A stretch of DNA of 29,327 nucleotides from positions 1 to 29,327 of IMG/VR virus record IMGVR_UViG_3300031365_000011. One strand, written 5' to 3'. The notes below the pieces were generated by a model. That model was not told the DNA's origin. It saw only the letters and a list, made by a program, of their open reading frames with translations, and searched no databases. Positions 1 to 23,220 of the stretch are shown here, piece after piece (the first letter of the stretch is position 1; every line of letters begins with the position of its first letter). This stretch comes from a virus. Both the position numbers and the translations under genes were made by a program.

Positions 1-1976
1 TTACTTCGTATAAGATCAATCTTTTCATTTTCTAAATCAATAAGGTTATCTAACATTCGTTGTGCTAAGTAAGCATACCTCTCAAGTAATTTGAAGTTAA
101 ATTTTGCTTTCTTAGTAAAAGGATGATCTACAAAAGCGTATATATTTAGTGAAGCCAAACGACAACTATCATATCTGCTCAATGGTAGTTCCGAACAATT
201 TGATATATTATGTCCTCCAGACCAATATGTATGAGTATCATTATCTACTGTGATATCATATACATCTGTATGTTCTATAAAACTAGTACTAATTAGTTTT
301 TTTGTTCTTTCTTCTAGAGTATAAGATTTTTTCTCTAAAAGAATTCTTAATTTATCATTTTTATACTTTTGTAAAAATCCAATCTTTTCATAAAATATAG
401 ATTTATCTCTAGTTATATTTAAATCATAAGATTCTTTACATTCATACTTTCCATTACTAAAAGAAACAAGATGTTTTTTATTTATAGTAATATAAGAAGC
501 TATTCCAATAGAGTTTAACATTTGTTGTACTTGTTCTACTAATATCTTAGAACTAGTTTTTAATGTTATTCTATGAGATATAATTGAGCCATTAGCACTA
601 TATAAACCTTTAAGAAAATTACAAACAGTAGTAGAATTAGCTTGAAAATATTTTTTAGGAACTTTTCTTAAAAAAGTTTTAGGAAGATCCTTGACTTCAA
701 GAGAAGTATTTATTTCATATGCAATATTTTTACCTAATCCTGGGCGATATTTAGTAATATTATCTTTTATTACTGAAGAAAAATAATCTTGGTCATTTTT
801 TCCAATAAATAAATAAATTAAGTTATTACTTGCTTTATGTACACTACCATCTCCTAAGACTAGACCATCCATAATTTCTATTTTATAATTTGTCTTAGTA
901 TGTAGTGTAGGTTCACCTCTTAAAATATTTATTCCTTTTGCATCTTTAGCTTTAACTTTTTTATCATTTTCTACTATTTGATGCTCTTTGGTACAGTAAA
1001 CACTTCCAAAAGAAGTGGAATACTTATAAACGTCTTTTCTTCCAGAGTAAGATTTATTTATAACTTTCGTCCAACCCTTTTCTGACCAAATTATGTCACC
1101 AACATTAGTCTCTCCAATAGTAGAAATACCAAAAGGAGTTAATACAGTTGCATAACTTGGTTGACAAGGATTAGTAGAAACAGTCTTAAATTCCTTATAA
1201 CAATCAGCAGGAGACTCTTTTAAGATCATATCCCAGAAGAGTACTCCAGGCTCAGCAGATTTCCATGCCTGATGAACTAAAGAAGTCCAAACTTTTCTTT
1301 TACGATCAGTATCAAGCTTCATAAAGTCATCTGAGAGACGTACTGAGATATTTGCCCCAGTAACCTTAGTAAGATCATCCTTAGCAGTGATAAAATCTAT
1401 CACATCTTCATGATCATCTCCAATAGTAAGAATCAATGCTCCTCTTCGTCCTTCCTGTGCTACCTCTCTGGTAGTATTAGAATACCTATCCATGAAAGGG
1501 ACAATACCTGTTGAGGTAGAAGCAGCATTAGAGACCTTACTTCCTTTAGAACGTATATGATTGAGATCAAGTCCTACTCCTCCCCTACGCTTCATCAGCT
1601 GTACAAGATCCTCATCTGCAGCTATGATACCTCCATAAGAATCTTCATCATTTCCCGCAACGAAACAATTCCCCAAACTGCTGATTTCCTGATTGTTACC
1701 TAACCCAAACATAGGACTACCTCCTAAAATAAAATAGTTATATCCCTTTAAGAGGTGATAAATATCTTCTCTGGAGATAGGATTAGGATAAGATTGCTCT
1801 ATCCTATAAAGTTCATCTGTGTATCTATTTATGGACTCATCTGGTGTCTTTTCAATAAATTCACCATTGAGCTTTAAAGCATATTTCTCCATCCACACAT
1901 TAGCCGCAAGAATATCTGAACTAAAATAAGATAAAGCAGCTTTCTTTACTTCTTCTTTTGAATATATTGTCATCAT
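1..1976 (-). CDS. nrdJ: Class II (adenosylcobalamin-dependent) ribonucleotide reductase, intein-containing, 3' part outside window
   Basis: Reduces ribonucleotides to deoxyribonucleotides for phage DNA synthesis. The visible 658 codons carry the class II signature: an N-terminal segment with LAANVWMEKYAL, then SLGNCFVAGNDEDSYGG, RRGGVGLDLNHIRSKGS, TREVAQEGRRGA and, once the intein is removed, STNP-CSELPLSRYDSCRL. From memory this is very like the B12-dependent enzyme of Bacteroides, which suits an anaerobic gut host. The frame is interrupted by an in-frame intein (codons 271-593). The C-extein starts with the Cys that corresponds to the thiyl-radical Cys of the active site. The ATG at 1976 overlaps the stop of the upstream small gene as ATGA; a second ATG follows directly. 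The C-terminus lies beyond position 1. Class II rather than class I is judged from motifs only. Confidence 0.88.
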   Translation of the reverse strand, partial: MMTIYSKEEVKKAALSYFSSDILAANVWMEKYALKLNGEFIEKTPDESINRYTDELYRIEQSYPNPISREDIYHLLKGYNYFILGGSPMFGLGNNQEISSLGNCFVAGNDEDSYGGIIAADEDLVQLMKRRGGVGLDLNHIRSKGSKVSNAASTSTGIVPFMDRYSNTTREVAQEGRRGALILTIGDDHEDVIDFITAKDDLTKVTGANISVRLSDDFMKLDTDRKRKVWTSLVHQAWKSAEPGVLFWDMILKESPADCYKEFKTVSTNPCQPSYATVLTPFGISTIGETNVGDIIWSEKGWTKVINKSYSGRKDVYKYSTSFGSVYCTKEHQIVENDKKVKAKDAKGINILRGEPTLHTKTNYKIEIMDGLVLGDGSVHKASNNLIYLFIGKNDQDYFSSVIKDNITKYRPGLGKNIAYEINTSLEVKDLPKTFLRKVPKKYFQANSTTVCNFLKGLYSANGSIISHRITLKTSSKILVEQVQQMLNSIGIASYITINKKHLVSFSNGKYECKESYDLNITRDKSIFYEKIGFLQKYKNDKLRILLEKKSYTLEERTKKLISTSFIEHTDVYDITVDNDTHTYWSGGHNISNCSELPLSRYDSCRLASLNIYAFVDHPFTKKAKFNFKLLERYAYLAQRMLDNLIDLENEKIDLIRS
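198..1166 (-). other. Intein with degenerate LAGLIDADG endonuclease, inserted at the RNR active-site Cys
   Basis: This in-frame insert of 323 codons starts with Cys1 (block A CQPSYATVLTPFG, then GETNVGDII). It has a block B-like GSVYCTKEHQIV with the usual His, and endonuclease motifs MDGLVLGDGSV and FLKGLYSANGS. It ends VYDITVDNDTHTYWSGGHNISN followed by Cys+1. The terminal Asn is present, but the penultimate residue is Ser instead of the usual His. The second LAGLIDADG-type motif has Asn where the catalytic Asp is expected (SANG versus SADG), so splicing is probably intact while homing activity may be lost. RNR genes are a known intein hot spot. Removing the insert restores an STNPCSELPL reading frame, which fixes both boundaries. 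Confidence 0.92.
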
Positions 1977-4666: not shown

Positions 4667-5316
4667 TTTATAGGTTCTTTAAGTATTGAATTAATCTTTT
4701 TAAAATGATCACATTCCCACTTAGCTTTTCTATAAACAGCATGAGCAGGATGGTAACTAGTTAAGACAGTATGCTTACTTCCATCTACTAAGTAGGAAAA
4801 GCTCTGTGCCTGAGATCCCCAGAAACAGAATATTAGATTATCAAAATTCTTTGATATGGTATGTAACAGTTCTGCAGTGAAATCCCTCCAGATATTAATA
4901 TGACTTCCTGGTCTACCTCTTTCAACAGTAAAAGCACTATTAATAGCCAAGACACCCTGTATAGCCCAGTGCTGTAACGTGATATCAAAATCTAAGTAGA
5001 GATCATCCCCACTTATACAATCAATAACCTTCTTTAAGGAAGGACTAATCCTAATAGTATTTACCGGATTGGCAAAGGCATAACCAGTATGGTGAGTGCC
5101 ATCATGATAAGGGTCCATACCAATAATAATCACCCTTGTATCTTCAGGATCAACCATACGAAAAGCTCTAAACACATTTTTTCTTTCAGGATAGAACTTT
5201 ATACCTTTGGAATGTAAAGTATTTAAAGCTGTTAAAGCTCTTAATAAATTGGGACCTCTCCCAAGCTCTGAGAGAGGTTGATCCCAATTCTTAAATAGTT
5301 TATGCATATCAAGCAT
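4660..5316 (-). CDS. ung: Uracil-DNA glycosylase, family 1
   Basis: Removes uracil from DNA as the first step of base excision. In 218 residues it has the catalytic water-activating loop GMDPYH (66-71; Asp68, Tyr70, His71), the uracil-binding INSAFTV (125-131), CFWGSQAQ, and the intercalation loop region SYHPAHAVYR with the second catalytic His189. Gln of the canonical GQDPYH is Met here and the HPSPLS loop is changed, so it is a divergent member. ATG at 5316 overlaps the amidoligase stop by 8 nt; the upstream TTG at 5322 is less likely. No dUTPase is seen in this window. Confidence 0.93.
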   Translation of the reverse strand: MLDMHKLFKNWDQPLSELGRGPNLLRALTALNTLHSKGIKFYPERKNVFRAFRMVDPEDTRVIIIGMDPYHDGTHHTGYAFANPVNTIRISPSLKKVIDCISGDDLYLDFDITLQHWAIQGVLAINSAFTVERGRPGSHINIWRDFTAELLHTISKNFDNLIFCFWGSQAQSFSYLVDGSKHTVLTSYHPAHAVYRKAKWECDHFKKINSILKEPIKW

Positions 5317-6766
5317 CAACAAGCGTATTTTTTCCTTCGAAAGGAAAAGTAAATTTCAAATCTTTCTGCATCTCAATCGTTCCAATAAAATCTCCTAGCT
5401 GTTCAGCTTTTTTGACTGAGTCTTTTCTAAGCTGGATATACTTATTCAGATAAGTGGAGATACTCTTACTTGGGTAAGAAGATTCCATGATATCAAATAA
5501 GGATATACGTGTAGGTAAATCAGATGGTCCTGAGAACTTTTTCGCAAAGTTAACAATTCCTGCACAAATAAACAACCAATTAATCAATTTTGTTTCATTC
5601 GTTGTAGCAGTGTGAAGACGGAACTCTACAGTTCCTCTAGTACCAAAAACGAAGGGAACAAAGTTAACCCAATAGTAACGGGAATTTATTGCCCATTTAC
5701 GATTATTCTCCCTGTCTGCAGGATGGTTCTGTGTTCCTAATCCTCTATACTTAGCATCATAGTATCCATCTATTCCTGCTAACCAATCAATGATACGACT
5801 TATCTCCCAACCAAAAGGAGGAAGAGCACTACAATAATCTCTATCCTTATAAACGGAAGTTGTTCTTATGGAAGTAGGAAACAATGAATACATCTCTCCT
5901 TCAATCTTCCTACAGATATTATATAATACCATTAGATAATTTTCTGTTTTAGGCAGATTACCAATATGAAGATGTAATGAACAAGAAGTATTCTTAGTAG
6001 TATACTTACTTAAAACTCTTGCTGCCTCTTTTAAGACATGTAATCCATTACTTCCTCTAAGAGGACAAGTAGCAAACTCAAACCCATTTATACTACCATC
6101 TCGTAGCGGAATCAATCCAGTCTTTACCAGATGTCTTGGATGGATAAATCCATCAGTAGTCTCAAACTCCCAACCAAAAGAAACGTCTCTTAACAAGAAT
6201 CCATGTTTGACATTTGGAGAAAGAGTTTTTAGATATTCTTTGAAGAACCCCTTTATCCCATCTCCAGAATGCTCAAAGCTGTAATCAACATTAAAATGAT
6301 ATGTATTGTTAATTGCAATCTTACTTGATGCTCTGGATGAAGACGTAAAGTTACCTGTTGAAATATCTTCTACTAATCCTAACTTATGTGCTACATTAAT
6401 ATTAGAAGCATATACCTCATAAGGATTAGCAGCTTGTGACTGCTTTTTGAACTTCTCTGGCAAAGAGTGATAATCAATACAGATATTATTAAAGACATTC
6501 TCTTTAAAATGTCCTAGCACAATCTTTCCTTCTTTATTTATAGCAATACCATATATCAAGTTTTGATCTGCCTTGAGAAGCCACTCTCCCGTCTCAACAT
6601 CTTGTATAAGATATCCACTATTTATTCGATACCACTTACCATAAAACTTGAAAACTTCTTCATTAACCTTATAGAACTCCTCTCGTATATAACGACAGTC
6701 TCTTCGGGGAACAGTCTTACCAAATTTTGTAGTAACTAATCTATCTCTATCAACCTTAGTGTTCAT
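5309..6766 (-). CDS. Amidoligase (PF12224-type, glutamine-synthetase fold)
   Basis: Predicted ATP-dependent ligase that joins a carboxyl group to an amine. The catalytic domain occupies about residues 190-485. It has VSFGWEFET (Glu200, Glu202), LRDGSI, GFEFATCPL (Glu230), CSLHLHIG (His265-x-His267-x-Gly269) and VEFRLHTATTNE (Glu381, Arg383), which are the metal/ATP ligands typical of the family. The first 160 residues form an extra, probably beta-rich, domain. It is the last gene of the amide-chemistry operon and overlaps both the GATase II gene before it (11 nt) and the glycosylase gene after it. The substrate is unknown; the family is linked to peptide or cell-wall-type amide bonds by comparative genomics. 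Confidence 0.87.
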   Translation of the reverse strand: MNTKVDRDRLVTTKFGKTVPRRDCRYIREEFYKVNEEVFKFYGKWYRINSGYLIQDVETGEWLLKADQNLIYGIAINKEGKIVLGHFKENVFNNICIDYHSLPEKFKKQSQAANPYEVYASNINVAHKLGLVEDISTGNFTSSSRASSKIAINNTYHFNVDYSFEHSGDGIKGFFKEYLKTLSPNVKHGFLLRDVSFGWEFETTDGFIHPRHLVKTGLIPLRDGSINGFEFATCPLRGSNGLHVLKEAARVLSKYTTKNTSCSLHLHIGNLPKTENYLMVLYNICRKIEGEMYSLFPTSIRTTSVYKDRDYCSALPPFGWEISRIIDWLAGIDGYYDAKYRGLGTQNHPADRENNRKWAINSRYYWVNFVPFVFGTRGTVEFRLHTATTNETKLINWLFICAGIVNFAKKFSGPSDLPTRISLFDIMESSYPSKSISTYLNKYIQLRKDSVKKAEQLGDFIGTIEMQKDLKFTFPFEGKNTLVDA

Positions 6767-8237
6767 TAGGCCAGTATTTTAAAAGCTTTATATTTTGATA
6801 TTCTAATATCTTTCTTTTTCCTAAATCAGAATAACTGGAAACAAGACCATCTTTTATAGTATAAGTTCTGTTTGTAAAAACAGGATCTAGCTTACCAGAG
6901 AAAAACATGTTATGATGAGTAACAGGATCAATAGTATATAACTTAGGCTCACCTCCATGATAATGTGCTACTGGATAAGGAGTGTTCTTAAGAATAACAG
7001 TAGAAAGAGGACTTATATACTTAGATTTATTTTGTTCTCTCTCAGCAAGTGCTTCTTCATAAGCATCCCTATTATTCATTAGGACACCCAAGATAAAGTA
7101 TAAGGTGAACTTACTCTCTGTCTTTTTCTTCTTAGGAACAACTAATCCATAATCATTAACAATATATTTTCCTTCAGCAAGCTCATCATTAATATGAAAA
7201 CGACCCTTATAATAAGAAAAGATATCTAATCCCAGATCCTGCTTATTATCCTTTATAATAGTCTCTGAAGGGTAATTATACTTTGTTCTTACTTTATCAC
7301 TAGTATTCTTAGGAAGAACAATAGCACCTCTTTCATAAAAAGGTTTATCATCAATATCATCATCATAATAATCCTTATAAGGATACGAATATCCAGCTGT
7401 GTTCCAACCTTGATAATAAGTTGATTTTTCTGATTGATAACAATTTTTCCTATCGAACTCCATCACTTCCGTTAAGACACCCCTCTTGATCTTATATAGC
7501 ATGTTCCCTTTTAATTTCCTAACAGCATCCTGACTATGAGCAATCAGCTTCAAGGGTCCTGCCTCAGATGAGTAATAAAGACTATTAGGAGATTCCTGAT
7601 AGATATGTAATGGACGTTCCTCAACAGGCAGCTTATAAGATTTATACATCGGCGATTCTCCTCTGAAAAGATATACACTATCATCATTAGTCCAGTTAAA
7701 AGCTAATGCAGCAGCTCCAATATATTCTTCTAAGATATTTAAACCAACCTCAGTACTGCTTATCAATGCTGCTAATACCTGTGAATCTGTTTCTAGATTT
7801 GTTATGTCAATATTATACTTCTTTGCTAGTTCCTTATGATTCTCTAATGTACCATTATGTGTTAATACAAATTTTAGATGCTCATCATCATTTAGAAGAG
7901 TAATAGGTTGTGCATTATCTACTCCTACTACCCCAACAGAAGCTTTTCGTGTATGTCCAATTACTAATCCTGTCTTAGTAGAAGCGATTGGTTGAACCAT
8001 CTGTATATAGTTCTTAAATAGACTATTAATCCCAACGCCATAAAGAGTTCCTTTACGATCATAGACCCCACAGGAATCTTTTCCTCGTTCCTGATTAGCT
8101 AATCCTAATAGAGTAAATGCTTGTCTATTAAAATATCTATTATTCTTCCCTGACCATCCAAAGAGTCCACAAGCAAGGACATTGGATTTTTTATAAGTAA
8201 GAATATGTATAAGTAATAAGATTATTATGATATTCAT
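6756..8237 (-). CDS. Class II glutamine amidotransferase (Ntn hydrolase) with a 22-residue leader
   Basis: Releases ammonia from glutamine, or acts on a related amide, using an N-terminal Cys nucleophile. Seen are ACGLFGWSGK (Cys23), ERGKDSCGVY, VIGHTRKAS (Arg97), LTHNGTLENH (Asn128, Gly129) and LETDSQVL (Asp151), the standard order of the GATase II domain. This is followed by about 260 residues with no recognised domain. The catalytic Cys is not at position 2 but after a hydrophobic leader, so cleavage before Cys23 is required for activity. ATG at 8237 forms an ATGA overlap with the ligase gene upstream and no usable start codon lies nearer to the Cys. In this operon it could supply ammonia to, or edit products of, the two amidoligases. 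Confidence 0.92.
   Translation of the reverse strand: MNIIIILLLIHILTYKKSNVLACGLFGWSGKNNRYFNRQAFTLLGLANQERGKDSCGVYDRKGTLYGVGINSLFKNYIQMVQPIASTKTGLVIGHTRKASVGVVGVDNAQPITLLNDDEHLKFVLTHNGTLENHKELAKKYNIDITNLETDSQVLAALISSTEVGLNILEEYIGAAALAFNWTNDDSVYLFRGESPMYKSYKLPVEERPLHIYQESPNSLYYSSEAGPLKLIAHSQDAVRKLKGNMLYKIKRGVLTEVMEFDRKNCYQSEKSTYYQGWNTAGYSYPYKDYYDDDIDDKPFYERGAIVLPKNTSDKVRTKYNYPSETIIKDNKQDLGLDIFSYYKGRFHINDELAEGKYIVNDYGLVVPKKKKTESKFTLYFILGVLMNNRDAYEEALAEREQNKSKYISPLSTVILKNTPYPVAHYHGGEPKLYTIDPVTHHNMFFSGKLDPVFTNRTYTIKDGLVSSYSDLGKRKILEYQNIKLLKYWPNEH
8172..8237 (-). other. Hydrophobic leader/propeptide preceding the GATase II catalytic Cys
   Basis: Residues 1-22 have a run of Ile and Leu (3-14), then YKKSN and VLA just before Cys23. 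VLAC resembles a lipobox, but the Lys pair lies after instead of before the hydrophobic run, which is atypical of a signal peptide. It may be an autocatalytically removed propeptide, as known for some Ntn hydrolases, or a lipoprotein-type signal. Confidence 0.55.
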
Positions 8238-9049
8238 ATGGTTGTAAATTTTTCTATGGCACTAAGTACCACCTCAGATTTAACCTTTTGTTGCATCATC
8301 TCTATCCCTAATTTCTCTTTTGCATTTTGTATAGATATATCAGTGATCTCCAGATCAAGCAGATTACGAACATTCCCTCCTTGAATAACAAAATCCATAG
8401 TTTTGATTGTCTGTTCATAAACCCATTTGAGATAATTATCTCTTAGAAAGAATCCTCCTAAGCTACGTAGCTCGATACCATAGGGCTTATGACGAAACTT
8501 ACCAAAACCTCCATAATTATCTTTTCTTAAAGAGTATTTATCTACAAAAGTAGATGGATAGACAACAAAAAAGTCAAAAGCTCTTGCAATAGCAAAATTG
8601 ACAAGCTCATTTGGATAATCCGTTGTGTTCTCATAACCTATATGGAGGTGAAATCCTGCTACCCGGAAGTTCTCAGTTATCTCTGGAGAGACTTCTTCTT
8701 GGAATGTCCAAGAGTTGTAGAAGGGACTACAACCAAATTCTTTTGCTCTTTTATCATCAAGATCTAAAAAGAATAATCTCTCTGAGCTGGATTCTACTAT
8801 TCGAGAACTCCATACATTAAGATACTTATTCATTTTTATTTTTAACTTTCTGATATTAGTAACAAATTCTTCAAGAGTCTCTGCAGGGGGCATGTTTCCT
8901 TCTAAGGTCACATTATCATAAAACATGGAAAATCCTTCTCCAAGATCCATAGGCTTTTTCTTGCTTCTGGATACGATCTCAAACGAAGGAACTATTCTTG
9001 TATTCTTCTTCTCTACGAAGAATTCAGGGTCAGATCCTATTGTGTACAT
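8234..9049 (-). CDS. Phage COOH-NH2 ligase (PF14395-type amidoligase)
   Basis: A second glutamine-synthetase-fold amidoligase, from a different family than the gene at 5309-6766. In 271 residues: IGSDPEFFV at the N-terminus (Asp7, Glu9), DNVTLEGNMPP (Glu50), FHLHIGYE (His134, His136, Gly138) and GIELRSLGG (Glu193, Arg195). These match the metal- and ATP-binding positions of the phage ligase family, which has been predicted to form amide bonds in peptides or cell-wall material. It overlaps the GATase II gene as ATGA and the unknown gene upstream by 13 nt. Substrate unknown. Confidence 0.86.
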   Translation of the reverse strand: MYTIGSDPEFFVEKKNTRIVPSFEIVSRSKKKPMDLGEGFSMFYDNVTLEGNMPPAETLEEFVTNIRKLKIKMNKYLNVWSSRIVESSSERLFFLDLDDKRAKEFGCSPFYNSWTFQEEVSPEITENFRVAGFHLHIGYENTTDYPNELVNFAIARAFDFFVVYPSTFVDKYSLRKDNYGGFGKFRHKPYGIELRSLGGFFLRDNYLKWVYEQTIKTMDFVIQGGNVRNLLDLEITDISIQNAKEKLGIEMMQQKVKSEVVLSAIEKFTTI

Positions 9050-9957
9050 AATTTTTGTAGTATTTGTTTTAACTCTAATAATACAGTTTTACTTTGCTTT
9101 TCTGTAAGCCTACCTCTTGTGTTATCTACATATCTTACCTTAGTTGTAAGACCCGAAATTTCCCCAAAGTTGCTATAAAAAAGATCATAAAAAGTACAAT
9201 AACCTGGATACAATTTTAAGATTTTTTCATATGTTATTACTTCTTCAGGTATACGCTCACAGAAAATATGATAATTATTTATAAACCGATCTGCATATAT
9301 TAATGCATTATACCAACTGCTCTTATACTTATGAACAAGTTCATCTATCTCATCCTCATTGTCAATAAGGAAGTTACATACTACCTGCTCTTCGGCGTAT
9401 AAACGAACAAAGAACCATCGAAAATAAACCATCATAGATTCATCATGAGGAAATCTTACATCCATAAAAGGAATGGTATATCTCTTAAGATTCTCTTTTT
9501 GATAAAGTTCATCTCCATCATCTCTGTTTATAAGAAACAAAAGCCATCCAAGATAAGTACCCATATATAATACTCCTTCCTCTTCTCCAAATTGAGTTTG
9601 TTTTGCTCTTACATGCACTCCTTGATGGGTAGATAAGTTTCTATATGTCGTTCTTATATTTGGATCTGTATGATAGTTATCAAGTATAGGATCTACTATA
9701 CTTTTAAAATCATCAAACGTTGCCCAGCCATATACATCTCTTTCAAATAGTTCATACTCAAGTTCAATATTTAACTTATTCTTAAGAATCTCTAACCATT
9801 TAATATATTGGTTAGTAATATCTCTATGATTAAGAAAATACTTCATTGGAACAATACCATTATAGGAAATTTCATCGTCATTAAGCTCCTCACAGCAATT
9901 AAAAACTGAAGAATTATCTCTATGACTTTTATATAATATACTATCTGTTATTGGCAT
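9037..9957 (-). CDS. Unknown protein of the amidoligase operon (306 aa)
   Basis: Not recognised. A 306-residue soluble-looking protein, rich in aromatic residues. It has a Cys pair at the N-terminus (NCCEELNDDE), the segment STHQGVHVRAKQTQFGEEEGVLYMGTYLG near the middle with a HxGxHxR-like cluster, and a helical C-terminus with many Lys. It overlaps the ATP-grasp gene (17 nt) and the ligase gene (13 nt), so it is an obligate member of the operon and probably acts on the same product. No metal-binding or nucleotide-binding motif can be named with confidence. Confidence 0.82.
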   Translation of the reverse strand: MPITDSILYKSHRDNSSVFNCCEELNDDEISYNGIVPMKYFLNHRDITNQYIKWLEILKNKLNIELEYELFERDVYGWATFDDFKSIVDPILDNYHTDPNIRTTYRNLSTHQGVHVRAKQTQFGEEEGVLYMGTYLGWLLFLINRDDGDELYQKENLKRYTIPFMDVRFPHDESMMVYFRWFFVRLYAEEQVVCNFLIDNEDEIDELVHKYKSSWYNALIYADRFINNYHIFCERIPEEVITYEKILKLYPGYCTFYDLFYSNFGEISGLTTKVRYVDNTRGRLTEKQSKTVLLELKQILQKLCTQ

Positions 9958-10750
9958 TTGCTTTTTGCATTATAAGTTTTGGTATAATCTCTGTCACCTC
10001 TCCAAAAGATGGAGCAGAATTAATCTCTATCAAAACAAAACCTGGATTATCTACCTCAGAAGATTGTACACGAACATCAAAAGCTCCAAAATCTAATCCA
10101 ACCTCTTTAAGAGCTTTTACACAATGTTCCTCAATAGCTTTCCAAGTAGTAGGCTTATTAAAATCTGGATTCTCTTCTAAGATCCAGACACAATTAGAAT
10201 CATTTCTATACCAACGGTTCTTTGCATCTCTTTTAAGCATTTTCCGACATGTATAAAAGCAACCATCAGCTGTACAGTGAAGTCTATATTCCCTACTCAT
10301 ATTAACATAATGTTCTAAGTAATAGGTATGAACATCGTTCTCAGTACAGAACTGCTCTAACTCCTTTTTCGTGTTAAGCAGCTGCATCCCTCTTGCCTTC
10401 GAGCCATAGAAACGTTTTGCTACAATAGGATAAGGAAGCTTATCAAAACTTAGTTCTACTTTTTCAGATTCTAAAACTGTTCCTTTATTAGAGAAAACAT
10501 ACCAAGCAGGATGAGATACTTCTGCAGCATCAAAAGCCCTTTTCATTAAGAGCTTAGAGGAGCTTGTTCGTACTGCATCCACACTATTTATCTCTACTAT
10601 AGAAGCAGGAGATAATTTAGGAAATACTACATTAGTAGGCGTAACAGATCCAAATCGTATAATACTTCTAACAGGTAATGCAGGAAGAGCTTTTCTCCTT
10701 ATACCATTCAAAGAGTAATTCTTTGATCTTATTCTAGGAAAGTAGTTCAT
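9941..10750 (-). CDS. ATP-grasp ligase (RimK-like)
   Basis: Predicted to activate a carboxylate as acyl phosphate and join it to an amine. In 269 residues: YPIVAKRFYGSKARGMQL (ATP-binding Lys112 and a Gly loop), YYLEHYVN (hinge Glu146), SREYRLHC, GAFDVRVQ (Asp225) and FVLIEINSAPSFG (Glu242, Asn244 as Mg ligands). This is the RimK/glutathione-synthetase arrangement. The N-terminal 60 residues are a short pre-ATP-grasp portion. It shares one base (10750) with the stop of the cyclotransferase gene upstream. It gives the operon a third independent amide-forming enzyme. Confidence 0.88.
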   Translation of the reverse strand: MNYFPRIRSKNYSLNGIRRKALPALPVRSIIRFGSVTPTNVVFPKLSPASIVEINSVDAVRTSSSKLLMKRAFDAAEVSHPAWYVFSNKGTVLESEKVELSFDKLPYPIVAKRFYGSKARGMQLLNTKKELEQFCTENDVHTYYLEHYVNMSREYRLHCTADGCFYTCRKMLKRDAKNRWYRNDSNCVWILEENPDFNKPTTWKAIEEHCVKALKEVGLDFGAFDVRVQSSEVDNPGFVLIEINSAPSFGEVTEIIPKLIMQKANANNR

Positions 10751-11109
10751 TAGTCTATATATTCTGACCAGTTTCCTGATTCAATACATTCCAAAGAATT
10801 ATATTCAGATTCTTCAAGGAAATATATCCAAGCTTCTCCAAAAGAGGTATCTACTTTTCTCCTATTATAAAAATTAGGATAGGATTCAAGATAATCAATA
10901 CCACGAAAAGCTTCATCATCAATATCAAATATCTCTACAACAATTGGATTAACTGCTTCAGTAGGTACTAAACCAGGAAATCCACCGAGAGAAACCATTT
11001 TATAAGGAAGATAAAGAACTTCTAATCCAAGAAATTCCTGATCACTTAAAAAATAATTATAATTACCGAAACCTCTTCTTAAGGTTCCATAAACAGCTAT
11101 CTTTGTCAT
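10750..11109 (-). CDS. Gamma-glutamylcyclotransferase-like (AIG2/GGCT fold) protein
   Basis: Members of this fold cleave gamma-glutamyl-amines by cyclising the glutamyl group to 5-oxoproline. In 119 residues the start MTKIAVYGTLRRG gives the YGSL-type substrate loop (7-10), and IDYLESYPNFYNRRKV supplies the conserved acid (Glu75), followed by GEAWIYF. Length is normal for the family. ATG at 11109 overlaps the previous stop as ATGA; an in-frame upstream ATG at 11163 would add 18 Asn-rich residues and is rejected. In this operon it could remove a gamma-glutamyl protecting group, as BtrG does in butirosin synthesis. Confidence 0.85.
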   Translation of the reverse strand: MTKIAVYGTLRRGFGNYNYFLSDQEFLGLEVLYLPYKMVSLGGFPGLVPTEAVNPIVVEIFDIDDEAFRGIDYLESYPNFYNRRKVDTSFGEAWIYFLEESEYNSLECIESGNWSEYID

Positions 11110-11867
11110 GAATTTGTTGTAGTTGTTGTTGGATAATGTATTGTTGTGTCTGCTATATACCAATTACTACCAAGAGGACCTACAAAGTATTCTGCATCTG
11201 GTTGCTTAGGTATAAATTCTTCTTCTTCAGCTTGCTTCATATCCTCTTTCTTTATATTCATCAATATAGTGATCCATTCTTTGACAACTTCTTGAATAGG
11301 ATCATCCATACTCATGAACTCAGGATGGAACTGCACAGAAAGCATTCCTTTGTTGAACAACACTGCTTCTGGTTCAACTGGAGGAGCAGGAAGAGAATCA
11401 TCATACCCATCAAGATAAACAGTACTTAGATTATGCTCAGGATGAGCAAGAATCTTATAACTGTCTTTATTCAGTAAGAATGGATTCATCATTTGATGAT
11501 GAGTCGATGTTACCTGATAAGACTTATCTCCTATCTTGATGTCATGAGTACCAAATAAAGCATGATTGGTCACATGCTGAATCACCTTTCCTCCTACTAA
11601 AGCACATAGGAACTGTGATCCTTTACATATTCCTAACATTTTCTTCTTATTAAAGTATCTTGCTCCTATATTCTCCCAGGTATTATCATGTCTATTATAA
11701 GAAGTATGTTGTCCTGCAGGTTCATTATACATATTTGGATTAACATCATCTCCTCCAGGAAAAACAATCAGCTCTGCTCTTTCTGGATCTCTTGTAATGA
11801 TTGCATCAAGTAGTTTCTCTAACCAAACTGATACCTGTTTATTATCTGTATGCACATAAATTTTCAT
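11106..11867 (-). CDS. Class I glutamine amidotransferase-like / gamma-glutamyl hydrolase (C26), copy 1
   Basis: Predicted hydrolase of glutamine or gamma-glutamyl amides. LIVFPGGDDVNP (34-45) is the oxyanion strand, MLGICKGSQFL contains the nucleophile Cys81, STHHQM is PuuD-like, and LSVQFHPEFM has the catalytic His181 and Glu183. The N-terminus is short and the last 50 residues are a low-complexity tail ending in Thr repeats and Asn-Ser. It starts with an overlap of 4 nt on the unknown gene upstream. The second copy in the same operon is at 12600-13373; the two are far from identical, so distinct substrates are likely. Confidence 0.86.
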   Translation of the reverse strand: MKIYVHTDNKQVSVWLEKLLDAIITRDPERAELIVFPGGDDVNPNMYNEPAGQHTSYNRHDNTWENIGARYFNKKKMLGICKGSQFLCALVGGKVIQHVTNHALFGTHDIKIGDKSYQVTSTHHQMMNPFLLNKDSYKILAHPEHNLSTVYLDGYDDSLPAPPVEPEAVLFNKGMLSVQFHPEFMSMDDPIQEVVKEWITILMNIKKEDMKQAEEEEFIPKQPDAEYFVGPLGSNWYIADTTIHYPTTTTTNS

Positions 11868-12646
11868 AATAAAATTTGTTTATGATTTTTTACTAAGTTA
11901 TCGTATTTTTTAAGAACATCTAAATCACTAATATCAAAAGAAACTATTTTAGTTTTTAATAATGTAGAACCTGAATTTAAATTAATATTAGTATATTTCC
12001 TGCTATCAGCAGCCATCTCTACCAGCTTATCAAAATCTTGATAAGCATTCTGTTTATTTCCATAAAATCTAGGATTATATACACCATGTACTCCTCCACC
12101 ACGATAGATAAAGACTATTAATAAATAATATATCTGATCTAAGATTAGCGTTGGAAAATCCTCTTTAAGAAACATAGATCCTAATGCAGCCCATAAGTAA
12201 GAAGGTTCAAAAAGAGTCCTTAGCTTTGTAACCAGGAGAAGCATCTGTAGATAATTATACTTTCTTCTTGGTATAAAACAAATTATATCCTCTTGTAAAC
12301 TAATATCAACATACTTGCTTAGCTCTTCAAAAAGATGACTCTTATAAGCTTCAAAAACATCATCTATCTCTGGAACTTCTTTTCTTAACTTATCTATACA
12401 AGAAGTTGCTCCACAACCATTTAGTGTCTTAGGAAGATCAACAAAAAGAGGATGATATTCTTTTTCCTCTTCTTTTCCTGAATACTTATCTAGATATGCA
12501 GCAAAACAAACATCATGTTTAAAAGCTTTCTTATCTGGTATAGATACCTCTTTAGGATTAAAAGATTCTCCATAAGCTAACCAAAGATCATAATTACCAC
12601 TATACTGAGATGTCAGTGTCAAGAACTCTTTCTTCTTTTTTTGCAT
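11864..12646 (-). CDS. Unknown protein between the two C26-like hydrolases
   Basis: Not recognised; 260 residues. It has a Lys-run start (MQKKKKEFLTL), a Cys-containing stretch NGCGATSCIDKL (about 77-88), a hydrophobic helical middle (DQIYYLLIVFIY) followed by the Gly-rich segment RGGGVHGVYNPRFYGN, and a Lys-rich C-terminus. The hydrophobic part is too polar at its edges to call a sure membrane span. It overlaps the upstream hydrolase gene by 47 nt, long for this genome, and the next hydrolase by 4 nt. The fixed place in the operon suggests a role with the hydrolases. Confidence 0.8.
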   Translation of the reverse strand: MQKKKKEFLTLTSQYSGNYDLWLAYGESFNPKEVSIPDKKAFKHDVCFAAYLDKYSGKEEEKEYHPLFVDLPKTLNGCGATSCIDKLRKEVPEIDDVFEAYKSHLFEELSKYVDISLQEDIICFIPRRKYNYLQMLLLVTKLRTLFEPSYLWAALGSMFLKEDFPTLILDQIYYLLIVFIYRGGGVHGVYNPRFYGNKQNAYQDFDKLVEMAADSRKYTNINLNSGSTLLKTKIVSFDISDLDVLKKYDNLVKNHKQILL

Positions 12647-13373
12647 CCTTTTCCTTCTTTTGGGTTAGTAAATATCTTACACAGCTCATAGACAAATCAT
12701 CCCATATCTCTTCAGGATGATACTGAAAAGTAAAGATATTATAATCGGGATAATATAACGCTTCTATCGTATCATCATCACTACTACTCTTATTGTAATA
12801 AGAAGCAAGAAGAACAGCCTCTTCAGGTACTCCCTTTACTGCTTGATGATGCATGCTATTTACCTCTTGTGACCTTCTTATTGCATGTCCTTTATTCTTC
12901 TTTGAAGCACTTAAGTTCTTTATCATCTCCTCTTTAAGTCCTTCAGGCAATATCTCTGTATGCACTTCAATATCATGAACCAGCTTACTTCTTTCCTTAC
13001 TTGGATTCGTCTCATGATACATTGATTGTATGATTGTTTGACGGAAAAAGATTGCTACTGCTTGATGTCCACGACAAATTCCCAGAATGGGCACTCCATG
13101 ATCAATCGCTTGTGGAAGCAGATACCTATCATAGTATTCCCTAATAGGATCAGATGCTCCTGTAAACATACTCGGTATATATCCATAAGTTGCTGGATTA
13201 ATGTCTGGACCTCCAGGTATTACCAAAAGATCATACTGAGAAAAATCAACATACTTTATCGGAGAGATAATATGTACATCTCCGAAGTTCTGTAGATAGG
13301 CATAGTAAGGAAGTGTTACTCCAAAAGAGTTATCTCCTGTTTTCCAACCTAAAATTGCAATTTTGTTATCCAT
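12600..13373 (-). CDS. Class I glutamine amidotransferase-like / gamma-glutamyl hydrolase (C26), copy 2
   Basis: First gene of the amide operon in the direction of transcription. LLVIPGGPDINP (49-60), ILGICRGHQAVA (nucleophile Cys100), VNSMHHQAVK (171-180) and FTFQYHPEEIW (His219, Glu221) are all in place and match the PuuD-type gamma-glutamyl-GABA hydrolase layout better than synthetase-bound GATases. The C-terminus is a charged Lys/Glu tail. Only 12 nt separate it from the upstream accessory gene and no promoter is visible in them. Confidence 0.86.
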   Translation of the reverse strand: MDNKIAILGWKTGDNSFGVTLPYYAYLQNFGDVHIISPIKYVDFSQYDLLVIPGGPDINPATYGYIPSMFTGASDPIREYYDRYLLPQAIDHGVPILGICRGHQAVAIFFRQTIIQSMYHETNPSKERSKLVHDIEVHTEILPEGLKEEMIKNLSASKKNKGHAIRRSQEVNSMHHQAVKGVPEEAVLLASYYNKSSSDDDTIEALYYPDYNIFTFQYHPEEIWDDLSMSCVRYLLTQKKEKDAKKEERVLDTDISV

Positions 13374-22963: not shown

Positions 22964-23220
22964 TTCGTGTGGATTAGAATGTAATAATCATGTTCACTAA
23001 AGTATAGTAATGCTCGTAATACCTCTGGTTGAATATCTGTTGTAGTGGTATACATCAGAGTCTTACCATCGTTTACAAGCGTACCTGAATGAATAAGAGT
23101 ATTTGTGAAATTCTTTTCAATTTCTTTGTTATCACTTTTCATCACTCTTGGAAGAACAATAGCACAGGCCACTGCTACAATACCCATAAGTGCTAGCCTT
23201 ATCATTTCTATTCTTCTCAT
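22960..23220 (-). CDS. Small membrane-anchored protein
   Basis: 86 residues: MRRIEMIR, then a hydrophobic span LALMGIVAVACAIVLP (9-24), then a soluble domain of 60 residues with beta strands (SGTLVNDGKTLMYTTTT). The positive N-terminus and single span suggest a type II membrane protein facing outward. The start overlaps the TROVE-like gene stop as ATGA. Confidence 0.7.
   Translation of the reverse strand: MRRIEMIRLALMGIVAVACAIVLPRVMKSDNKEIEKNFTNTLIHSGTLVNDGKTLMYTTTTDIQPEVLRALLYFSEHDYYILIHTK

Follow-up and report, generated by a model that had tools for sequence, protein, structure and literature searches.

The cassette and its enzymes

The IMG/VR record IMGVR_UViG_3300031365_000011 is a viral fragment of 29,327 bases, analysed here over its full length (the window), in which positions 5309–13373 are filled by nine open reading frames (ORFs), all on the minus strand and numbered P1 to P9 from the high-coordinate end. 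An initial annotation had read this segment as a nine-gene phage operon that builds and trims an amide- or gamma-glutamyl-modified product, perhaps on the cell wall, a protein or DNA. The nine ORFs and their overlaps (1–58 bases between neighbours) are as described there, but a closed unit they are not: a uracil-DNA glycosylase (UDG) ORF overlaps P9 by 14 bases, and on the upstream side of P1 another ORF ends only 12 bases away.

Profile searches assigned seven of the nine ORFs to named families, with conserved catalytic residues, and upheld the family calls made previously. P1 (12600–13373; PF07722, E = 3.5e-26) is a C26-type gamma-glutamyl hydrolase/class I glutamine amidotransferase-like protein and P3 (11106–11867; PF07722, 2.9e-12; phrog_7218, 2.4e-29) a second C26-type hydrolase; with 92.8 and 47.2 bits, respectively, both exceed the Peptidase_C26 cut-off of 20.5 bits and have the Cys-His-Glu triad, which in P1 consists of C100, H219 and E221 and is accompanied by an S-x-HHQ motif. 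P4 (10750–11109; PF06094 (GGACT), 5e-22; 79.1 bits against a cut-off of 22.8) is the expected gamma-glutamyl cyclotransferase-fold protein (GGCT) and contains the catalytic Glu; its ORF reaches 11163 with a TTG start, and the preferred ATG at 11109 shrinks the overlap to 4 bases. A class II (N-terminal nucleophile, Ntn) glutamine amidotransferase (GAT2) is encoded by P8 (6756–8237; PF13522 (GATase_6), 3.3e-13), completing the predicted set of two C26-like enzymes and one class II enzyme.

Three amide-forming enzymes had been proposed and three were found. P7 (8234–9049; PF14395, 3e-7; phrog_3815, 1.4e-49) is a phiEco32-like type 2 COOH-NH2 ligase (CNL2) that scored 30.4 bits, and 25.3 bits in another scan, against the COOH-NH2_lig cut-off of 25, and P9 (5309–6766; PF12224, 6.4e-11) is an Amidoligase_2 ligase (AMD2; 43.0 against 22 bits) with conserved ExE, HxH and ExR motifs. 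For P5 (9941–10750), an ATP-grasp fold is supported by its match to phrog_2599 (1.8e-25), while the Pfam model CPSase_L_D2 stayed just under its cut-off (19.7 against 19.8 bits). That the three are unrelated, as initially stated, was not established, since the HxH motif is common to both amidoligase families (profile comparison, E = 0.0011, probability 20%, 26 columns), which have both been placed in one GS-like superfamily. No PDB chain matched either amidoligase profile at E < 0.3. None of the nine ORFs had an NCBIfam equivalog above cut-off, and therefore no substrate can be named from this resource. The remaining ORFs are P2 (11864–12646), a member by iterative hidden Markov model (HMM) search of a family defined in this analysis and called CF, and P6 (9037–9957), which lacks a family match and occupies the slot of CF proteins elsewhere.

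The NCBIfam models nearest to P5 are the RimK/LysX-type glutamate ligases TIGR02144 (39.2 bits) and TIGR00768 (38.7 bits), both below cut-off, and the cassette might accordingly add a tag of glutamate or glutamine residues to a protein of the host or the phage, in a RimK-like manner, and then trim it, for which the expression of the PaP3 cassette genes ahead of the late genes (PMC4707531) would be suitable. However, P5 falls far short of RimK membership (143.4 bits for TIGR00768), and three ligases together with two kinds of gamma-glutamyl removers exceed the needs of a single tag; we consider protein tagging unlikely.

GGCT, ATP-grasp, CNL2, Amidoligase_2 and class II glutaminase genes are thus clustered in one region, and the window almost certainly carries the phage amidoligase cassette, in a crAss-like version. 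In profile scans, the cassette is flanked by genes for a DnaB-like helicase, a Sak4-like ATPase, a primase, UDG, a RusA-like resolvase and a PD-(D/E)XK exonuclease, and the order DnaB, Sak4, primase, cassette, UDG, RusA, exonuclease is that of Crassvirales, matching Cellulophaga phage phi14:2 and cr108_1 (both Steigviridae). No capsid, portal or terminase gene was found among the ORFs scanned in this 29 kb fragment, so that the assignment depends on gene order; judged by this order, the source is indeed a phage, namely a crAss-like virus of bacteria.

Conservation of catalytic residues

Conservation was scored in family alignments with the window proteins as reference, families of more than 110 members being sampled at about every second sequence. 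The catalytic residues, whose roles are those known for the families, are kept nearly everywhere and not lost. In C26 proteins, the triad was present in 84 (C100), 77 (H219) and 78 (E221) of 88 sequences. The GAT2 nucleophile C23 was found in 92 of 96, and R97, N128, G129 and D151 in all 96. Among the ligases, D225 and E242 of the ATP-grasp proteins were invariant (76/76; N244, 71/76), as were D7, E9, D45, E50, R129 and R175 of CNL2 (90/90), which further conserves C107, H134, H136, R186, E193 and R195; AMD2 retains E200 and E202 (102/104), H265 and H267 (103/104) and R383 (100/104), with D223, E230 and E381 also conserved. The catalytic Glu column of GGCT (E93) was occupied in 66 of 71 sequences.

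Distribution and synteny

Single-protein IMG/VR scans with P6, P2 and P9 gave no close relatives, and alignments were therefore used as queries. Scans with AMD2, CNL2 (twice) and GAT2, each keeping no more than its best 80 loci, yielded 290 loci, which with the window and five named loci (L002–L006) made 296 (L001, a piece of the window, was excluded) and collapsed by shared identical ORFs into 205 groups, the window and four named phages included. Of these 205 dereplicated loci, 169 had four or more of six cassette families (CNL2, GAT2, AMD2, C26, ATP-grasp and GGCT), absences being partly technical because of the ceiling of 80 loci and of contigs that end early.

As the query families had fetched the loci, only genes other than the query give an unbiased measure of co-occurrence. 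The 73 dereplicated loci found with GAT2 contained CNL2 (71), AMD2 (71), ATP-grasp (64), C26 (62) and GGCT (46), and this synteny excludes a chance grouping of the families of the nine ORFs. Similar companions appeared in the first (70 loci: GAT2 68, AMD2 66, ATP-grasp 60, GGCT 47, C26 39) and second CNL2 scans (76 loci: GAT2 73, AMD2 73, C26 66, ATP-grasp 61, GGCT 29). The 46 loci found with AMD2 had GGCT in 31, GAT2 in 20 and CNL2 in only 12, so that many AMD2 genes are not part of a full cassette and often have GGCT as their sole partner. Such loci, in which AMD2 is accompanied by GGCT (one or two copies) while CNL2, GAT2 and ATP-grasp are missing, are frequent among L024–L060 (for instance L031 and L043) and possibly represent a minimal, two-enzyme form.

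Two gene orders dominate: that of the window, CNL2 followed by GAT2-AMD2, in 103 groups, and AMD2-GAT2, as in PaP3 and ECBP2, in 40. Cassettes of the latter, podoviral order also encode, between CNL2 and AMD2, a family of 183–329 residues (L005:6279–6902, L006:7735–8361 and 48 further ORFs) with conserved R92 and R96, whose sampled members match phrog_4877/phrog_11055; searches with this u221 gene gave no nameable identity. The same cassette was found in phi14:2, cr108_1, PaP3, ECBP2, tf and RIO-1. In the record of phage tf (L297), mapped single-strand nicks (features sci2–sci10) occur throughout, several of them within the cassette. A type 2 COOH-NH2 ligase is present in 316 phage records; a pattern-limited scan of one genome per species across 84,980 species gave three loci, all with cassette genes plus phage-type primase/helicase genes, and P7 had no match in plasmids. 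The cassette is thus common and seems to be confined to phages.

The CF family and P6

Two of the nine ORFs had initially been left as unknowns, which still applies to P6, whereas P2 has found a family. Neither had a significant Pfam, PHROG or NCBIfam match or phmmer relatives among 7,097 ORFs, and pairwise hhalign failed to place either. The CF family was built from 31 ORFs of the same cassette region and grew by iterative HMM searches to 58 members. P2 joined at E = 1.1e-4 before its inclusion (534 sequences, half of them reversed decoys; best decoy 1.0) and scored E = 0.002 against a model grown from an independent seed. The alignment contains a nearly invariant Cys (56/57; C47 in P2) and Arg (57/58; R143 in P2), along with a frequent Tyr (45/56) and His (37/57). 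On the strength of these profile matches, we assign P2 to CF as a new, cassette-specific family, with members in 52 of 169 cassettes (two copies in six) and hence frequent, not universal, at the sensitivity reached.

Neither Pfam nor PHROG gave a credible match for CF itself; the best values for single members were 0.0023 and 0.0013, each for one of 49 members. The predicted model of a central CF member other than P2 (predicted local distance difference test, pLDDT, 89.9; predicted template modelling score, pTM, 0.90) strongly matched only four crAss-like phage proteins, two from cr108_1 and two from ctelJ1 (E 1e-9 to 4e-8); Foldseek found nothing significant in the PDB (best E 0.12). A second structure comparison reached Z 4.0 at most, which does not demonstrate a novel fold. 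Papain-like or BtrH-like chemistry, considered for the spacing of Cys, His and Asn, had no support from the structure search and is therefore not claimed. An uncharacterised podoviral protein (23, then 13 members) did not join CF by HMM or hhalign (E 0.15), although in BFVD the CF model had a marginal hit to a protein from an Aeromonas phage (E 0.017, probability 0.90). By tblastn, one CF and one podoviral member gave no matches in phages.

P6 lies between the ATP-grasp and CNL2 genes. Where an ORF of more than 280 residues was the only large ORF in this slot, it was a CF member in 11 of 11 other loci, a count that omits L268, with five ORFs in the slot, and five loci whose slot ORFs all have fewer than 240 residues. 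P6 itself scored E = 530 against the CF HMM and had no tblastn relatives in 50,697 phage records. An aligned motif that looked convincing by eye was equalled in its controls (unrelated sequences, 3 of 70; shuffled sequences, 8 of 70) and was dismissed, and the AlphaFold2 (AF2) model of P6 is poor (pLDDT 54) and partly circular, as CF sequences were in its alignment.

A hydrophobic helix on the glutaminase

In P8, the class II residues R, N, G and D are complete and the catalytic Cys is residue 23, so that processing would be needed. The 22-residue extension directly before C23 contains a hydrophobic stretch followed by positive charges, and the initiator ATG is the sole ATG, GTG or TTG ahead of C23; the GAT2 of phi14:2 has the same hydrophobic extension. 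A hydrophobicity threshold applied to the first 40 residues was passed by 41 of 187 GAT2 ORFs and by 1 of 889 ORFs of the other cassette families (ATP-grasp 0/147, CF 0/58, C26 0/170, CNL2 1/175, AMD2 0/203, GGCT 0/136). The helix was present in 38 of the 103 loci with the window's order and in 1 of the 40 with the podoviral order.

The net charge is about 0 before the helix and +1.8 after it, the after-side being the more positive in 38 of 41 cases, and Leu occupies the second position before the Cys in 34 of 41. By the positive-inside rule, this charge pattern places the enzyme in the cytoplasm, and we infer that these GAT2 proteins are membrane-held, cytoplasm-facing glutaminases, perhaps in the form of a proenzyme.

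Genomic surroundings

The UDG gene next to P9 (4660–5322, minus strand; PF03167, 1.7e-15) occurs in 46 of the 103 loci with the crAss order and is probably a neighbour of the cassette, not a member of the pathway. Promoter-like sites are fewer than in shuffled sequences (43 against 58.4) and terminator-like sites in excess (12 against 4.0). At one edge, a ribonucleotide reductase (RNR) large subunit gene (3–1976, minus strand; PF02867 and PF14528) extends beyond the window and is split by a LAGLIDADG homing-endonuclease domain, probably an intein. Toward the other end lie the gene for a 482-residue protein (23217–24665, minus strand) with matches to PF25043/PF11443 and the phrog_850 'RNA-binding protein', and genes for tRNA-Met (24772–24847) and tRNA-Val (25221–25294), both on the minus strand; the latter overlaps a predicted ORF of 113 residues (24914–25255).

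The position among replication genes, with an RNR gene in the same window and three hydrolytic activities in the cassette, would suit a nitrogen supply in which glutamine, glutathione and gamma-glutamyl amides are salvaged for nucleotide synthesis. Such a scheme, which we regard as quite improbable, gives little reason for three ligases that consume ATP and have conserved active sites. The location between the primase and the UDG/exonuclease genes could also be taken as a hint that the cassette makes a hypermodified DNA base, and amino-acid-bearing bases do occur in other phages. However, no gene for base modification came to light in the window, and virion DNA of the cassette-bearing phage tf was cut by five restriction enzymes (PMC3517423): RsaI, HpaI, EcoRV and SmaI during cloning and HaeIII in primer extension. 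A bulky modification of those sites is therefore unlikely in tf, and DNA hypermodification by the cassette, one of the targets named initially, is very unlikely.

Relation to known systems

Hardies 2013 and Iyer 2009 are said to be sources on the cassette, the latter reportedly the primary one. PMC5498523 presents a 'peptidoglycan modification cassette' of seven genes from RIO-1-like podoviruses, names as its carriers phiEco32, 7-11, PA11, tf, MR299-2, LUZ24, PaP3 and CW02, and restates the hypothesis of a host surface altered against superinfection, with peptidoglycan as the proposed target. Cassette genes are also listed in UFV-P2 (PMC3890496), and further papers mention them or repeat the hypothesis (PMC6209634, PMC10580990, PMC11318856); PMC11898732 deals with other proteins. 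The interpretation of the gene set was thus only partly new, the set being in print for podoviruses. The literature searched, with most subscription papers outside its scope, held no experiment on the cassette product or on changed peptidoglycan, and no paper treating the cassette in crAss-like phages, at which few of the searches were aimed.

With the podoviral cassettes (RIO-1-, LUZ24- and phiEco32-like), the window shares GGCT, ATP-grasp, CNL2, Amidoligase_2 and class II glutaminase genes beside replication genes; it differs in the order CNL2-GAT2-AMD2 instead of AMD2-GAT2, in two C26 hydrolases, the CF-family P2 and the hydrophobic GAT2 extension, and in the absence of a u221 gene between CNL2 and AMD2. 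Phage phi14:2 has the same order of GGCT, ATP-grasp, CNL2, hydrophobic-extension GAT2, AMD2 and UDG, but neither C26 nor CF in its cassette, whereas cr108_1 encodes ATP-grasp, two CF proteins, GAT-I, CNL2, GAT2, AMD2 and UDG, lacks GGCT at this place and has a GAT2 beginning with MCG. The ligases and GAT2 of these two phages are only 29–34% identical to those of the window. The cassette is therefore mostly of a known kind, to which the crAss-like variant adds the CF family and a putatively membrane-held glutaminase.

A related logic is known from butirosin (BtrJ/BtrG) and putrescine (PuuA/PuuD) metabolism, where a ligase adds a gamma-glutamyl group that a GGCT or C26 enzyme removes. The window has both kinds of enzyme, unlike these systems without a carrier protein found and with single-function NCBIfam matches all below cut-off. 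A soluble small molecule or peptide carrying a gamma-glutamyl protecting group in the style of the butirosin side chain, to be built by the ATP-grasp and amidoligase enzymes and deprotected by C26 and GGCT, would be expected to use this toolkit of GGCT-fold, C26 and ligase proteins; tf_25 was annotated as BtrG-like by its depositors, and most GAT2 proteins lack the anchor. On the other hand, a scan of window ORFs revealed neither an acyl carrier protein nor an exporter, and a product of this kind would leave unexplained why a fifth of the glutaminases have an anchor. A soluble product is a possibility that we hold with considerable doubt.

A tentative pathway at the inner membrane

The idea that the cassette builds and trims amide and gamma-glutamyl bonds is supported by the profile matches, the conserved catalytic residues and the synteny. 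As a whole reading, we tentatively propose, at somewhat less than an even chance, a pathway of amide ligation and gamma-glutamyl trimming at the inner membrane that acts on an envelope precursor. In such a pathway, P8 would free ammonia from glutamine near the face of the inner membrane, and P5, P7 and P9 would form amide bonds, in part gamma-glutamyl ones, between a common acceptor and either amino acids or ammonia. P1, P3 and P4 may take off gamma-glutamyl groups, either as deprotection or to recycle by-products, and P2, as a new cysteine protein, might serve a cassette-specific step such as the transfer or binding of an intermediate. The likeliest acceptor would be a precursor of the host cell envelope, and its modification would change the cell wall during infection, for instance as a defence against superinfection or premature lysis.

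Among the targets named initially, the cell wall is mildly favoured, as the GAT2 anchor speaks, for the crAss-like lineage, in favour of an acceptor linked to the envelope. A PaP3 transcription study (PMC4707531) reports that ORF32–48, which span the enzyme genes ORF42–48, peak at 10–30 min, and that ORF49 and ORF50 group as early by clustering and as middle by inhibitors; in PaP3, the cassette would therefore act before the late stage, which fits the cell rather than finished virions.

Several points weigh against a membrane pathway directed at the envelope. Class II glutaminases act with a free N-terminal Cys, so that the helix must be removed or the enzyme works otherwise, and the commonest residues at position -1 (N, S and Y) are a poor fit to the motif rules of either signal peptidase. 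Of all GAT2 ORFs, 146 of 187 are below the hydrophobicity threshold and nearly all podoviral-order loci lack the anchor; a membrane site is thus not general. The window has no recognised peptidoglycan gene, no cassette product, substrate or mutant appeared in the literature searched, and C26 and GGCT proteins could equally serve a free small molecule. The envelope pathway is hence the best of several readings, not an established one. A bolder version, in which the CF proteins form a novel class of cysteine enzymes or carriers that take up the ligase product on their Cys and hand it to the envelope acceptor and GAT2 is a membrane proenzyme activated by cutting of the anchor, appears improbable at present.

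For the phages that carry this common cassette, the anchored glutaminase and the CF family offer a clue to its product and two concrete, testable handles on it, and the core genes are shared by the tractable phages PaP3, LUZ24, tf, ECBP2 and phi14:2. The long-standing question of what the cassette makes has thereby become more testable, without being answered.

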